DNA of 35,618 bases, taken from assembly GCA_011176615.1 (NCBI GenBank), contig DUEG01000016.1, forward strand, positions 1 to 35,618. The letters run 5' to 3'. Below the pieces are notes generated by a model. That model made no database searches. It had not been told where the DNA came from and worked only from the letters and a program-made list of their open reading frames with translations. Positions 6,152 through 25,500 of the stretch are shown here, one piece after another; position 1 is the first letter of the stretch, and each line of letters opens with the position of its first letter. Source of the DNA: Anaerolineae bacterium (GTDB taxonomy: Bacteria; Chloroflexota; Anaerolineae; Anaerolineales; UBA11858). The translations under genes were made by a program, and so were the position numbers.

Positions 6152-6778
6152 TCAGAACATACTCAATTGCTTGGGTTCATCCTTTCTCTTATGCTCTTCC
6201 TCTTGGTATTCAATGATTGTATCTGTCTTTTGAATGAGTTCCGGTAATTTCTTGAAATCAGCCTCAATAATTGGTTTTAAAGAGCGTTGATGGAGGGCTG
6301 CTGCTGGATGATACATTGGGACAACTAATCGACCGCGAATGCTCATGGCTTGTCCATGAATTTGACCAATTTTCGCATTTGGCAGAAAGCGAAGCATCGA
6401 AAACCTTCCCAAGGTCACAATCACTTTAGGATTGATTGCATGAATCTGGCGTTCCAAATAATCACTACAAGCAGCCAATTCTTCCGGTTTAGGATCGCGG
6501 TTTCCTGGAGGCCTGCATTTTACAACATTTGTAATAAACACATCTTCACGTTTCAAATCAATTAGGGTTAGCAACTCATCTAGGAATTTGCCAGCAGCGC
6601 CAACAAAAGGTCTCCCTTGCTCATTTTCATGAAATCCCGGCCCTTCCCCGATCAACATAATTTCAGCATCCGCTGGACCTTCGCCAGGCACAGCATGTTT
6701 CCTCGAGTAATGCAATTCACACTTCTCGCAAGTTGCTGTTTCTTCAGCAATTTTTGCTAAAATCTCTTTAGGATTCAC
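6152..6778 (-). CDS. Uracil-DNA glycosylase, family 4 (4Fe-4S type)
   Basis: A 208-residue DNA repair enzyme that removes uracil arising from cytosine deamination. Four cysteines at 17, 20, 88 and 104 (CEKC near the start, KCRPPGNRDP, ACSDYL) match the 4Fe-4S ligands of type-4 enzymes. The active-site motif GEGPGFHENEQGRPFVG is at 44-60 and the second motif is YHPAAAL near 156. The start is GTG at 6778, chosen because a strong ribosome site (AGGAGGT, 6790-6784) lies five bases upstream and because the first cysteine pair then sits at the usual distance from the N-terminus. It lies 61 bases after rimI and may be cotranscribed with the tsaE-tsaB-rimI group. Confidence 0.93.
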   Translation of the reverse strand: MNPKEILAKIAEETATCEKCELHYSRKHAVPGEGPADAEIMLIGEGPGFHENEQGRPFVGAAGKFLDELLTLIDLKREDVFITNVVKCRPPGNRDPKPEELAACSDYLERQIHAINPKVIVTLGRFSMLRFLPNAKIGQIHGQAMSIRGRLVVPMYHPAAALHQRSLKPIIEADFKKLPELIQKTDTIIEYQEEEHKRKDEPKQLSMF

Positions 6779-11938: not shown

Positions 11939-12083
11939 ATATTCCTTGAATCTAAAGACTATTTTATATTTTAGCAATAATTTTCATACTATTTTTATAC
12001 GCTTTCTTTGTAAATCTCCAACTTTCTGTGGTTTAATTCTTATGTGAAGAAAAACGCTATTTTTTTTAAGGAGGAGTACCCTG

Positions 12084-20612: not shown

Positions 20613-21035
20613 ATGGCAATAGAATTCTTAAGCAGCGAATGGCTTCACGCCTTTAAAAATAAACTAAACCTTGACGAAAGATATGCCCGAATTGCAAAAA
20701 ACTGGGAAGGAGATTTTGCCTTTCGCATTGAAGCAGACGAAACCTTTCCGCAAGAAAGGATGCTGTATATGGATTTATGGCACGGGAAATGCAGAAATGC
20801 TTTTCTAATTGATCAAGAAAATAACAAGAATACCAAACCCGCCTACATTCTAAGTGCTACTTACAATATCTTTCTGCGAATCCTTGAAGGAAAACTAGAC
20901 CCAATGCAAGCCATGTTATCAAGAAAATTAAAAGTTTCTGGCAGTATGGCATACATGATGCGGAATATCCCAGTTGTCCTAGATTTTGTGCGATGTGCGA
21001 AGGAAACAACTCAACAGATCAAAACAAATAATTAA
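20613..21035 (+). CDS. SCP2 sterol-carrier-like lipid-binding protein
   Basis: A 140-residue single-domain protein matching the SCP2 fold: an N-terminal helix (SSEWLHAFKNKLN), a central sheet (GDFAFRIEADE, RMLYMDLWHGKCRNAFLI, PAYILSATYNIFLRILEGKLDPMQAMLSRKLKVSGSM) and a final helix. The segment ILEGKLDPMQAMLSRKLKVSGSM is the most family-specific, corresponding to the G-x-L-x-P-x-x-A-x-x-x-G-K-hydrophobic motif. Such proteins bind acyl or sterol-like lipids. AAGGAG lies 13 bases upstream of the ATG. Pairing with the lipid-type GMC oxidoreductase suggests it presents or carries the substrate; that is inference. Confidence 0.82.
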   Translation: MAIEFLSSEWLHAFKNKLNLDERYARIAKNWEGDFAFRIEADETFPQERMLYMDLWHGKCRNAFLIDQENNKNTKPAYILSATYNIFLRILEGKLDPMQAMLSRKLKVSGSMAYMMRNIPVVLDFVRCAKETTQQIKTNN

Positions 21036-21063
21036 AAAATCGCTTTTCAACAAGAACAATACC

Positions 21064-21687
21064 ATGTCTCGGCAAAAAAAGGGAAATCGCTACCGACTAT
21101 TAGTATATTATCGCACTTGGAACCGCTTATGGAAAGAAATGTTCGCCATAGGGTTTCTCCTCCTTATTTTATGGCATTTTGGCTACGATTCCTCTTTTTT
21201 ACATCTTACCCCATTAACAACAAACTTGGTATTGGGCAGTGCAGTCGTTTGTCTTTTTTTTAGCCTAGTTAGTTTCATTGCCCGACGTTTAAATTATGTT
21301 CAACCTTTTCCTACTCATTTACTCTTGGTTACACCCCTTTTAAGATTAAACATTTCTTACAAACGGATTAACAGTGTTCGTCCCATTGATGTCGCTAAAA
21401 TTTTCCATCCATCTAAATTATCTTGGTCACAAAGAAATACAATAGAACCATTTTATGGAATGACTGGCGTTGGTGTCATCCTATATCAATATCCACTGTC
21501 TTACAAATTTCTCCGATTATTTATTCCTCTCTCGCTCTTTTTGCCACACACCACCGGGATTTGCTTGATCGTAAAGGATTGGATGAACTTAAGCACAGAA
21601 ATCGATAGTATGATTGCTTCCCAATTAGATAAAAGAAGAGAAAAAAGAAAACAACCTGGATTAATTACTGACCTCAGAAGTGATTAA
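21064..21687 (+). CDS. Two-TM membrane protein, possible PH-like cytoplasmic domain, function unknown
   Basis: About 207 residues from the ATG at 21064. An in-frame ATG at 20986 exists but would overlap the SCP2 gene by 50 bases and add an uncharacteristic tail, so I prefer 21064. After a basic N-terminus (SRQKKGNRYRLL) come two membrane segments (about 24-43 and 52-72). Then a soluble region reads LLLVTPLLRLNISYKRINSVRPIDVAKIF, with the strand-turn-strand look of bacterial PH domains where a hydrophobic strand leads into YxRIxSVRP. The tail is strongly basic (DKRREKRKQ). Position after the SCP2 gene suggests one operon. I assign no function. Confidence 0.7.
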   Translation: MSRQKKGNRYRLLVYYRTWNRLWKEMFAIGFLLLILWHFGYDSSFLHLTPLTTNLVLGSAVVCLFFSLVSFIARRLNYVQPFPTHLLLVTPLLRLNISYKRINSVRPIDVAKIFHPSKLSWSQRNTIEPFYGMTGVGVILYQYPLSYKFLRLFIPLSLFLPHTTGICLIVKDWMNLSTEIDSMIASQLDKRREKRKQPGLITDLRSD

Positions 21688-21793: not shown

Positions 21794-21802
21794 TGGTATG
21801 AT
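21794..21802 (+). promoter_or_regulatory. Extended -10 promoter of a candidate small RNA
   Basis: TGG-TATGAT, the extended -10 form, in a convergent intergenic region with no protein-coding gene downstream on this strand. A TTGACA lies at 21767-21772 but 24 bases away, too far to act as a normal -35. Transcription would start near 21809. Confidence 0.5.
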
Positions 21803-21808
21803 AATTGT

Positions 21809-21907
21809 ACGAAAGGGAACAAAACCCTTTTCATTCATCGCTGTTTCCTCCTTTGGCGAAAGTTCCCACCGGGTTTTCCTCACCATCTCGGTGGGAACGT
21901 TTTATTT
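21809..21907 (+). ncRNA. Candidate small RNA with C-rich loops
   Basis: About 99 nt between the promoter above and a strong intrinsic terminator. Three hairpins are visible. Hairpin 1 is GAAAGGG (21811-21817) with CCCTTTTC (21825-21832), one bulge. Hairpin 2 is TCGC (21838-21841) with GCGA (21856-21859); its loop holds TTTCCTCCTTT (21844-21854). Hairpin 3 is the terminator, whose loop holds TTTTCCTCACC. The CCUCC and CCUC loop motifs are complementary to Shine-Dalgarno sequences, the hallmark of several sRNA classes that block ribosome binding. The longest plus-strand reading frame here runs on into the opposite gene and looks like a shadow. Existence is inferred from sequence only. Confidence 0.5.
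21862..21907 (+). terminator. Strong intrinsic terminator
   Basis: GTTCCCACCG (21862-21871) and CGGTGGGAAC (21889-21898) form a perfect ten-base stem with a 17-base loop, followed by GTTTTATTT. It ends just inside the stop codon of the convergent histidine kinase gene. The minus-strand flank has only a short T-run, so it works mainly on the plus strand. Confidence 0.85.
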
Positions 21908-23833
21908 ATACGTCTCACTTTCAATGATAGGTAAAACGACTGTAAATTTGCTCCCTTTTCCCAGAGAAGAATCAACCCATATACGCCCCTGGTGATTTTC
22001 AACGATTGATTTCACAATAGCAAGCCCTAAGCCTGTACCAGATATATTATTAGAAACATTACCTGCTCGATAGAATTTATCAAAAATATATGGTTGATCC
22101 GCTGGTGGAATACCTGGCCCATTATCAGAAATTCTGATGATCAATTGTTCGTTTTCCTCATGAGCAGATACTTGGATTTTTCCACCCTCTGGCGTGTATT
22201 TAATGGCATTTCCAACTAGATTATCCATCATTTGTCGCAATCTTGTTGTATCACCAAAAATCTTAGGCAACTCCGGTTCTGCTGATAAATCTAATTTAAG
22301 ATTTTTCTCTATTATTTGGTTACGAAAGTTTTCAAGTGTAAAATTAATAATCGGTAAAATCTGAACAACTTCCTTTCGTGTATCAAAACCAGACTCAATC
22401 CGCCCCAAATCTAATAAGTCGTTGATTAATTCTGTAATGTTTCGGACGCTCAATTGTACCCTTCTAACAAATTCCCGTTGCTGTTGATTGATTTCTCCTG
22501 CTCGTTCGATCAATTCAACATATCCTAAAATTGCAGTCAATGGGGACCTAAGGTCATGAGAAACAGTATTTACAAAATCTGTCTTGATTCTATCTAACTC
22601 TTTCAGGTGTGTAATATCCTGCATTGCTACAATGACACCAACATCCTCAATCGATGTGAGAAGAGCGTTGAAAACACGTCCATCTTCAAGCATAATCTCA
22701 TCCCGGTAATTATAGTCTCCCATATGGCTCTTTAGCATTTCTAATATTGGAGTGCCCTGAAACACATCCTCGATCGTCCCACCTATTATTTTCTTATCTT
22801 CAATCTGGAATGCTTCTTGTACAGTATGATTGACAAGGATTAGTCTACGATCTAATCCCACGACAATCACACCATCTTCAACATTCGTAAGTATTGTTTC
22901 CAGTTGCCTTCGTTCATTTTCAGAATCATTATACAGGCGAGCATTTTCAATTGCGATTACAGCATATTCAGCAAGTGTTTTTAATATAGAAATATGGAGA
23001 GTTGAATAAGCGGATGAATTACTGCGATTATCTACACCTAAAACCCCAATCACTAGACCATGAATAACTAACGGCACATATATTAAGGATTTTACTAAAT
23101 AGGTTGTTTTTATCTTCTGAGGTGCATCAGCATTTATCTCTACCAATTCACCTGTACGTATAACTTTCCCTGCTAAAGTGTCATTAATTGGCAAACGAAA
23201 TGTTTGCACAAACTCATCCTTGAAATTCTTCCCAGCCCGCATGTATAGTTCCCCGCTCTTTTCATCGATCAACAACAAACTACCCTCTTCCGATTCTGTT
23301 AGGTTAACAGCAGCATCTACAACCGAACTAAGAACTTGATCAATATCCAAAGATGCTGTTACTGACCGACCAATTTTACTTAATTGTTCAAGAATATCCA
23401 CTCGTTTTTGTAGGTAATCAGTATTTTTCCGATAAAGTAATTTTGCCCAGTTAGTAAGTTGCTGACCACGCTTCCGGGCTCGTTCAACTGCAGATAAAAC
23501 ATCATCCTTCTTTGTTGGTAAACATAAACATTGTATAGCACCAGTTTCATAAGCGCGAATAATATTTTCTTTATCACTATTGCGAAGAAGCAGAATCACA
23601 GGCAATTCTGGATGACTATGATTGATTCTTGAGGCGAGGTTTAATCCTTCTCTATCTGCAAATTCTTCGTCAATAATCATAAGATTATGGTTTGTTTTCG
23701 CAAGGTATGACTCAATATTATCGACATTACTCACCAAAGTTACATTAAACCCTGCAGGTGTTAATATTGTGCGCTTAAGTAGATTCCCTAAAAATTTATC
23801 TGAAACAGCAACAAGGATATTTTTATCAGACAT
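21902..23833 (-). CDS. Hybrid sensor kinase: receiver-like, GAF, PAS, HisKA, HATPase
   Basis: A 643-residue cytoplasmic protein. A receiver-like domain spans 1-120 with Asp55 at the phospho-acceptor position, but the N-terminal acidic pair is reduced (AVSDK), the switch Thr/Ser position is Leu and the KP lysine is Leu (LCLPT). A helical linker runs to about 150. GAF is about 150-300 (LINDTLAGKVIRTGE, ending AVIAIENARLYND), PAS about 305-410. HisKA has His426 in VSHDLRSPLTAILGY. The ATPase domain has N box NLVGNAIKYTPEGG, G1 SDNGPGIPPADQ and G2 GTGLGLAIVKSIVENHQG, all intact. It starts 23 bases after the pseudokinase gene, in the same operon, suggesting that the two work as a pair. Confidence 0.93.
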   Translation of the reverse strand: MSDKNILVAVSDKFLGNLLKRTILTPAGFNVTLVSNVDNIESYLAKTNHNLMIIDEEFADREGLNLASRINHSHPELPVILLLRNSDKENIIRAYETGAIQCLCLPTKKDDVLSAVERARKRGQQLTNWAKLLYRKNTDYLQKRVDILEQLSKIGRSVTASLDIDQVLSSVVDAAVNLTESEEGSLLLIDEKSGELYMRAGKNFKDEFVQTFRLPINDTLAGKVIRTGELVEINADAPQKIKTTYLVKSLIYVPLVIHGLVIGVLGVDNRSNSSAYSTLHISILKTLAEYAVIAIENARLYNDSENERRQLETILTNVEDGVIVVGLDRRLILVNHTVQEAFQIEDKKIIGGTIEDVFQGTPILEMLKSHMGDYNYRDEIMLEDGRVFNALLTSIEDVGVIVAMQDITHLKELDRIKTDFVNTVSHDLRSPLTAILGYVELIERAGEINQQQREFVRRVQLSVRNITELINDLLDLGRIESGFDTRKEVVQILPIINFTLENFRNQIIEKNLKLDLSAEPELPKIFGDTTRLRQMMDNLVGNAIKYTPEGGKIQVSAHEENEQLIIRISDNGPGIPPADQPYIFDKFYRAGNVSNNISGTGLGLAIVKSIVENHQGRIWVDSSLGKGSKFTVVLPIIESETYK

Positions 23834-23856: not shown

Positions 23857-25500
23857 TCATGCGGTAGGAAGCGAAAAATAGCACTTTAATCCACCACTTG
23901 GGTTACTTTCTATGCCAATCTCCCCCCGATGAGATCGGATTATCTCCTTTGCTAAAACCAAGTCGATAAATAATTTATTCGGTTGATTATCTTTCAATTT
24001 AATTATCTGATAATAAGGATCAAACACATTTAATAGTTCTTCTTCTGCCATTCCCGCGCCAGAATCGATTACTGTCACATCCACTTTCCCTATACCGCTA
24101 ATAGTTATTCCAACATCAATCTCGCAACCTTCCGAACAATCTTCAATCGCTCTCATTAATAGCGTATCAAAAACTTGTCCAATTTTTACTGGATCAACTT
24201 CCACAAGGACGGGTAATGATGGGAAATTCCAATTTATATCTATATTCTTCATACCCAATTTTTCCATGTGCCTATTAATAGCATTTTTTGCAAGTGTTAG
24301 AAGATCGACTTTAACCATTTGCAACTTAGCGGTAGATTCCTGAAAGGCACTTACGGCACTTACAATATTAATCACGCCATTCAATCTTTTTCTAATTGAT
24401 GTTAATGCTTCATATTGGTCACTCCCAAGGTTTTCCACTCCATCTTGGAAGAGATTTGTAAATTCCTTTATCTCATTTAATTGGGATTTAACTTCTTGAT
24501 TCAAGTTATGCAAGATTTGTGCTTTCTCTCGTTTGTCCTTCTTTACATTATTTACCACCTCTTGTAGTTTTTTTGCTCTTCGTTCTAAAACATTAAATAA
24601 TTCAGCATTTACCATGGATATTGCTGCATAATCTGCAACCGCTTCAAGCATAGCCTGGTTACTTTGGCTGAAAGGTATCGCTTTATCGCGAGTAATTACA
24701 AGTATTCCTATCACTTCCTTTTGTGCTTTTAAGGGAACAACTAAGGCAGATGAACCCAATTGCCCAATTTTGAATTTTTTAAGGGGATTCCCATGAATTC
24801 TCATGGATACACCAGATAAGGCGACAATTGGGCTTAACCCATCATCCCAAGGTTTATTTATATTGTCTTCCAATTCTTTTGGAAGTCCGCGGAAAGCCTT
24901 GAGATAAAATGTTTTTGGTTCACCTTTACGGATTAATATCCACCCACGATCCGCTTCAGTAATATACAATGCCCCCTCAATAATCTTGTCAAACAAAATT
25001 CGTTGATCCGTGATTGACGTGACTGCCTTACCGAGAGCATAAATCGTTGTTAATTCACGTACTCTCTGTTGCAATTCCTTATTTAATTTTTCTAATTTCT
25101 TCCCCAATCGTTCTTTCTCCCTTTTTACCTGCACTTGTTTCATAACGCGTTCTACGGCGGAAACAATTTCGGTTTCTCGGATTGGGGATAACAAATAATC
25201 AGATGCACCCAAGCGAAACGCTTGGATAATATCTTCTTCTTGTCCACTTTCAGCAATAATAATTAATGGGACATCGATCCCTTGAGACGAAAAGGCGACG
25301 AGTAAATCCTTTCCGCTTAATCCAGACATATTTAAATCCATAATGATCATGTCCGGCATCACATGTATTGTTTTCTGAATCGCGGTTGAAGAATCCCCCG
25401 CTATTTCAACCTGATAGCCAAGAGGCTGTAAGGTTTGCCGGGCAATTAGATCACTGATTTCTGGGTTGCTTTCTATAAGTAGTATACGCACCAGATCCAT
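23857..25500 (-). CDS. Receiver-GAF protein with degenerate histidine-kinase module (pseudokinase)
   Basis: A 547-residue protein. The receiver (1-122) keeps Asp55 (MIIMDLNMSG) but has Ser for the conserved lysine (YLLSPI) and Ala for the switch Thr. A coiled coil spans 122-150, GAF about 150-300, and a second coiled coil about 300-330. The segment ILHNLNQEVKSQLNEIKEF aligns with the H box but has Gln335 for histidine. The ATPase domain has Arg450 in place of the N-box Asn (LLMRAIED) and a G2 region without glycines (NKLFIDLVLAKEI), while G1 (DSGAG, 479-483) remains. Autophosphorylation is therefore unlikely; a regulatory or scaffold role is inferred. The ATG lies very close to a candidate promoter, with no ribosome site. 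Confidence 0.88.
   Translation of the reverse strand: MDLVRILLIESNPEISDLIARQTLQPLGYQVEIAGDSSTAIQKTIHVMPDMIIMDLNMSGLSGKDLLVAFSSQGIDVPLIIIAESGQEEDIIQAFRLGASDYLLSPIRETEIVSAVERVMKQVQVKREKERLGKKLEKLNKELQQRVRELTTIYALGKAVTSITDQRILFDKIIEGALYITEADRGWILIRKGEPKTFYLKAFRGLPKELEDNINKPWDDGLSPIVALSGVSMRIHGNPLKKFKIGQLGSSALVVPLKAQKEVIGILVITRDKAIPFSQSNQAMLEAVADYAAISMVNAELFNVLERRAKKLQEVVNNVKKDKREKAQILHNLNQEVKSQLNEIKEFTNLFQDGVENLGSDQYEALTSIRKRLNGVINIVSAVSAFQESTAKLQMVKVDLLTLAKNAINRHMEKLGMKNIDINWNFPSLPVLVEVDPVKIGQVFDTLLMRAIEDCSEGCEIDVGITISGIGKVDVTVIDSGAGMAEEELLNVFDPYYQIIKLKDNQPNKLFIDLVLAKEIIRSHRGEIGIESNPSGGLKCYFSLPTA

Follow-up and report, generated by a model that had tools for sequence, protein, structure and literature searches.

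Does the gap between two convergent genes in a genome of the Anaerolineales (Chloroflexota) hold a gene of its own, and if so, what might its product do? The window, by which we mean the whole 35,618-nucleotide stretch analysed, had been read from its letters as encoding a free-standing small RNA, and the elements named in that original prediction (an extended -10, hairpins and a terminator) all lie where it put them. It is very likely that a conserved RNA gene exists between the two genes. Our preferred reading, to which we give a probability of about 0.62, is that its product is an independently transcribed, single-copy, roughly 95-nt, trans-acting anti-Shine-Dalgarno small RNA of Anaerolineales. 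The features on which the argument turns are these:

21794 to 21802, plus strand: extended -10 promoter element TGGTATGAT (TG-G-TATGAT), with TG at 21794-21795 and TATGAT at 21797-21802; no clear -35
21809 to 21903, plus strand: predicted small RNA of about 95-100 nt, with its +1 near 21809 and its 3' end in the T-tract
21811 to 21832, plus strand: hairpin 1 (GAAAGGG/CCCUUUUC type) of the predicted fold, 21811-21817 with 21826-21832; local to the lineage
21814 to 21821, plus strand: 5' element AGGGAACA, corresponding to the GGAGACGG of relatives and able to pair with UGUUUCCU (21842-21849)
21838 to 21859, plus strand: hairpin 2 (UCGCU:GGCGA), its loop containing UUUCCUCCUUU, predicted in the window species and close relatives
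21841 to 21860, plus strand: near-invariant 20-nt core CTGTTTCCTCCTTTGGCGAA (family CUGUYUCCUCCUUUGGCGAA), from the alignment of 102 homologues and the core variants among 165
21846 to 21856, plus strand: invariant nucleus UCCUCCUUUGG, anti-Shine-Dalgarno, from core variants among homologues
21862 to 21898, plus strand: 3' stem-loop of 10-12 bp, a predicted intrinsic terminator, stem GTTCCCACCG/CGGTGGGAAC, 21862-21871 with 21889-21898
21878 to 21884, plus strand: terminator-loop motif CCTCACC, found in a subset of the family
21902 to 23833, minus strand: GAF/PAS histidine kinase gene, convergent with the RNA and not part of it; stop codon (21902-21904) in the RNA's T-tract

The case for a gene rests chiefly on how widely the sequence recurs. 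A BLAST search with the 131-bp region matched 30 of 61 genomes (the window's own and its relatives), and a pattern scan of GTDB genomes returned at least 119 matching stretches, of which those listed were all titled Chloroflexota, mostly Anaerolineae or Anaerolineales with a few MAGs under other Chloroflexota genus names. A covariance model built from 102 non-redundant homologues found the RNA in 156 of the 262 genomes of the order, spread over 63 of 102 genera and almost always in single copy, a distribution that puts the observation far beyond chance. Because the model search used strict filters, this number of carriers is a lower bound. Across the phylum the model matched 25 of 400 genomes, 23 of them within the order. 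Outside the order two copies looked likely to be genuine by eye (L205 and the weaker L204); the model matches L202 and L203 were weak, and among eight class-level matches to the pattern TCCTCCTTTGNCGAA that we read, L206-L211 proved to be unrelated sequence. The window itself matches the model at 21811-21913 (77.5 bits, E 6.7e-17), a score to be read knowing that its sequence was among those used to build the model. The 100-nt RNA folds at -34.4 kcal/mol against -21.15 +/- 3.17 for shuffles (z = -4.18), and none of 200 shuffles did as well. Carriers include the isolates Longilinea arvoryzae KOME-1, Bellilinea caldifistulae GOMI-1, Anaerolinea thermolimosa IMO-1 and Leptolinea tardivitalis YMTK-2.

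Whether a genome carries the RNA goes by genus (families f8, f12, f15 and parts of f13). Many small genomes of the order lack the RNA, many non-carriers being near 2 Mb, as if it had been lost with genome reduction; the window's own 2.1 Mb assembly (83% complete) is a counter-case that retains it.

A TATNAT-type -10 lies 6-7 nt upstream of the RNA's 5' element in 58 of 60 relatives measured, and TATNAT-like boxes occur in nearly all of 111 copies, 6-7 nt before a 5' element that is most often GGAGACGG. The extended -10 of the original prediction is thus borne out by conservation at a fixed distance, and it is on this that our promoter call rests and not on a consensus promoter scan, which alone was not significant (19 found, 26.4 expected). 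At the other end, the window's terminator stem is followed by GTTTTATTT, with the T-tract at 21900-21903. Three or more Ts follow the 3' stem in 153 of 163 copies, and four or more in 97 of 163. The ten-base stem that had been described is present and carries many compensating changes in relatives: in covariation analysis 99.0% of its cells were paired and nine of its ten pairs changed on both sides, and inspection of BLAST matches showed its sequence differing among relatives while the core stays. The conserved -10 and the T-tract stem would together supply the promoter and terminator of its own expected of a trans-acting anti-Shine-Dalgarno sRNA.

At gathering score Rfam 15 returned no family, neither for the window nor at the RNA locus of ten relatives, and a scan at lax thresholds gave chance matches only, so the check for an already known family came back empty. 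In the literature searched we found no paper on sRNAs in Anaerolineae or on the core sequence; a 2017 motif survey (NAR gkx699) lay outside the search, and an earlier description under another name is possible.

What the RNA does is suggested by its core. Within the 20 nt, the 8 nt of CCUCCUUU match the anti-Shine-Dalgarno tail of 16S rRNA letter for letter; in relatives a 16S-like 3' tail is seen as GGATCACCTCCTTT. Every BLAST-matched genome inspected had ATCRCTGTYTCCTCCTTTGGCGAA with few changes. In the copies found by the model, a less biased sample for core variation, the ends of the core vary (AUGU, UUGU or CAGU at one end and GGCGAG, GGCAUU or GGCUAA at the other) and UCCUCCUUUGG hardly varies. 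The anti-Shine-Dalgarno stretch is therefore conserved, and it is predicted to be accessible. Since the core matches the tail with which the ribosome binds mRNA, the RNA probably switches genes off by covering ribosome-binding sites. In 57 of 163 copies the 5' part also holds a further C-rich motif, ACCUCC. The C-rich motif claimed for the terminator loop is present in the window, where the loop includes TTTTCCTCACC, but does not hold for the family, since no more than 63 of 163 homologues have CCTCAC/CTCACC. Both recurring motifs, ACCUCC and the CCUCAC/CUCACC of the loop, are possibly secondary anti-Shine-Dalgarno sites.

Less of the proposed folding survived. Three conserved hairpins with conserved loops had been expected, and a covariance search for them upheld the terminator stem only. 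Hairpin 2 was rejected as a family structure, because covariation is absent and 48 of 95 relatives cannot form its middle pair; the family-wide 5' hairpin (GGAG:CUCC) was likewise rejected, its covariation being no better than that of shuffles. The family-wide structure, judged from the aligned sequences, appears instead to be a helix that the 5' end forms with the core, plus the terminator. In this helix, P1 (GGAGACGG:CUGUYUCC), 85-92% of cells are paired across the family, with G-C to A-U changes. The fourth pair is GC in 63 sequences, GU in 18 and AU in 8, and A faces C there in one aligned sequence versus U in eight, an A-U count that is approximate because some of these rows come from loosely aligned 5' ends. 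Compensated outer pairs occur as GGUGACAU/AUGUCUCC (L215, L233) and GGAGACAA/UUGUCUCC (L188, L191), and the outermost pair is an A-C mismatch in about 25 copies. Measures of covariation over the whole structure exceed both shuffles and slides, though they are dominated by the 3' stem and inflated by related sequences. Predicted ensembles leave UCCUUU unpaired at a mean probability of 0.52-0.77 and CUGUYUCC mostly paired. In the window, AGGGAACA and UGUUUCCU can form eight contiguous pairs, G-U included, a score reached by 1 of 50 shuffles of the 5' region. The 5'-end/core helix is not the minimum-energy fold in the window species, and predictions for the window's own family put hairpin 2 in its place, so the lock that this helix would form is a family trend and not universal.

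The main rival to anti-Shine-Dalgarno regulation accepts a real RNA and gives its pyrimidine-rich core to a protein (for example a cold-shock or ribosomal one), or to another conserved RNA, the molecule acting as a sponge or scaffold and the anti-Shine-Dalgarno match being secondary. Twenty near-invariant nucleotides, GGCGAA among them, are more than pairing to varied Shine-Dalgarno sites would obviously need, which is what makes a protein or conserved RNA partner possible. That searches for extended mRNA targets turned up none would also suit this rival. Allowing up to 2 mismatches, extended complementarity in the RNA's own genome gave 31 sites, versus 37 for a reversed control, and across 151 genomes the 14-nt extended complement AAAGGAGGARACAG was about as rare outside the RNA gene as its control. 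Sites of the form GCCAAAGGAGG-ATG outnumbered a permuted control (GCC-extended vs CGC) by about 141:44 in carriers and 40:22 in non-carriers. This excess, of about 3:1 and 2:1, does not decide the matter: base composition differs, and only listed self matches were taken out, so that some may remain. Hfq (PF17209), on which Hfq-dependent sRNAs rely, matched none of 61 genomes of the order, and control genomes did match. Against a binding partner of this kind, the strictest part of the core is precisely UCCUCCUUUGG with its 8 nt of 16S anti-Shine-Dalgarno, divergent copies differ in the flanks GGCGAA and CUGU, and no protein partner is indicated. We consider this rival unlikely, if the strongest of those weighed here.

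The Shine-Dalgarno sites named in the original prediction do exist, AAGGAGGA at 12068-12075 ahead of gene 12084 and AGGAGGT ahead of the gene that ends at 6778; as candidate targets, these genes simply carry two of the strongest such sites in the window. The best predicted partners in the window include genes 30931, 12084 and 6152-6778, at -18.4, -17.8 and -16.9 kcal/mol, energies that carry no shuffle control. Among 28 window genes examined, only a few have a strong Shine-Dalgarno site, and most initiation regions look weak or Shine-Dalgarno-free.

The neighbouring genes bear on a second rival, in which the RNA is an antisense or 3'-UTR partner of the convergent histidine kinase, overlapping its end and controlling its mRNA in cis. 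In 73 of 108 loci the convergent gene on the right is a homologue of this kinase, and in the window the kinase stop codon falls within the T-tract. In most of the remaining loci, about 34, an unrelated gene (PanC, DnaJ, SET-domain, MFS and others) stands on the right and the core is nonetheless retained, so the core is not conserved on the neighbour's account. In the window the kinase itself has a weak ribosome-binding site, with poor predicted pairing to the RNA (-5.3 kcal/mol), and the conserved core lies upstream of the overlap, all of which makes control in cis improbable. The original prediction had offered loss of the C-rich stretch beside kept flanking genes as grounds for abandoning it; we found the opposite, the core being kept where the neighbours change, and with no Rfam match the proposal of a free-standing small RNA gene stands. 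An mRNA leader or riboswitch was rejected, since the right neighbour lies on the opposite strand in 88 of the 103 loci having both neighbours. Because about two thirds of carriers have the sensor kinase lying convergent to the RNA, co-regulation of the two is possible. On the minus strand the window has two GAF-domain sensor kinases side by side (21902-23833 and 23857-25500), with receiver-like domains at their N-termini. On the plus strand, 20986-21687 encodes a 233-aa protein with no Pfam or NCBIfam match, a homologue of which lies directly upstream of the RNA in about 20 other loci.

It is very improbable that the locus is just a bidirectional terminator between convergent genes with a chance C-rich sequence and no separate RNA: the convergent context of most loci and the strong stem with its T-tract would suit such an element, but it fails to account for the near-invariant 20-nt core, the -10 at a fixed distance from GGAGAC, the covariation between 5' end and core, or conservation in non-convergent contexts. 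Least credible is a small protein-coding gene or a leader peptide, read in the frame ...I-A/T-V-S-S-F-G-E..., which is open across the core and places the Y of GTY and one GCT/GCA change at third codon positions, and which we rejected on substitutions, a stop and frame breaks (ATT, GTA or AAG for GAA, or TAA, and TTC for TCC in divergent copies; one-base deletions between the upstream ATG and the core frame), together with the lack of a ribosome site at suitable distance and a terminator loop of varying length.

The trans-acting anti-Shine-Dalgarno RNA that we favour would be a new sRNA family whose kind of action is already known. Among its closest counterparts is alpha-r14/NfeR1 of rhizobia, in which the ultraconserved anti-Shine-Dalgarno motif CCUCCUCCC sits in the unpaired region of each of three hairpins with variable stems, and which represses by covering ribosome-binding sites (PMC10746234). 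Both are small, free-standing RNAs with an ultraconserved anti-Shine-Dalgarno motif and sequence-variable stems, but the Anaerolineales RNA has, in place of three conserved hairpins, one invariant core with the motif UCCUCCUUUGG and a 5'-end/core helix, and belongs to another phylum. The csRNAs of streptococci are CiaR-dependent, under a two-component system and present in several copies per genome, and the unpaired region between their 5' structure and terminator is complementary to the Shine-Dalgarno and often the AUG (PMC3091779). Here the RNA is single-copy, in another phylum, and a sensor kinase is merely a frequent neighbour; in the corresponding pairing region the Shine-Dalgarno part is invariant and the anti-AUG part (CAUCG) varies as CAUCG, CCUCA and CCUCC types. 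RsaE/RoxS of Firmicutes, likewise a conserved sRNA, uses a C-rich motif (UCCC) to bind metabolic mRNAs at their Shine-Dalgarno sites (review PMC9266662); it differs in motif, anatomy and phylum, and the RNA described here matched no Rfam family. The alpha-R8 sRNAs SisA-D/MmgR are widely conserved and share a 10-nt anti-Shine-Dalgarno-like motif, but occur as several siblings in one genome, and those that have been characterised work together with Hfq (PMC12559287), in contrast to a single-copy RNA in an order with no recognisable Hfq. All four are anti-Shine-Dalgarno in kind, and none is homologous by the tests made here. The Chloroflexi-1 motif (RF01698), a candidate structured RNA listed for Chloroflexus aggregans (PMC2864571) and thus also from Chloroflexota, was matched by neither the window nor the ten relatives in the Rfam scan.

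How such an RNA might act can be sketched from its parts. It would offer UCCUCCUUUGG, the same anti-Shine-Dalgarno letters as the 16S tail, in trans to ribosome-binding sites; its targets would be the minority of mRNAs with strong Shine-Dalgarno sequences, and initiation on these would be blocked without Hfq. The RNA's own 5' end, GGAGACGG in most relatives, is itself Shine-Dalgarno-like, and there it would pair with the first half of the core (CUGUYUCC) and leave only UCCUUU exposed as a toehold. In this locked state GGAGACGG and CUGUCUCC would be protected and UCCUUU reactive. A strong mRNA Shine-Dalgarno would have to displace the internal helix, and selectivity would therefore be raised. 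In the window species a small hairpin exposing the same letters would partly replace the helix. More tentatively still, and with doubt outweighing confidence, we suggest a self-locked mimic of the ribosome's tail: as the 5' Shine-Dalgarno mimic GGAGACGG and the copy of the 16S anti-Shine-Dalgarno, UCCUCCUUU, pair with each other, the RNA would open only when it meets an mRNA whose Shine-Dalgarno site is long.

The conservation of trans-acting sRNAs usually reaches no further than close relatives, and we found no described regulatory sRNA for the phylum Chloroflexota in the literature searched. This RNA reaches across a whole order of Chloroflexota, abundant, for the most part uncultured and with no recognisable Hfq. 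If the self-locked mimic is true, the order would share a regulator that needs no Hfq and adjusts translation according to Shine-Dalgarno strength. The covariance model, the predicted 5' and 3' ends and the cultured hosts offer a way to test how an anti-Shine-Dalgarno RNA stays selective.
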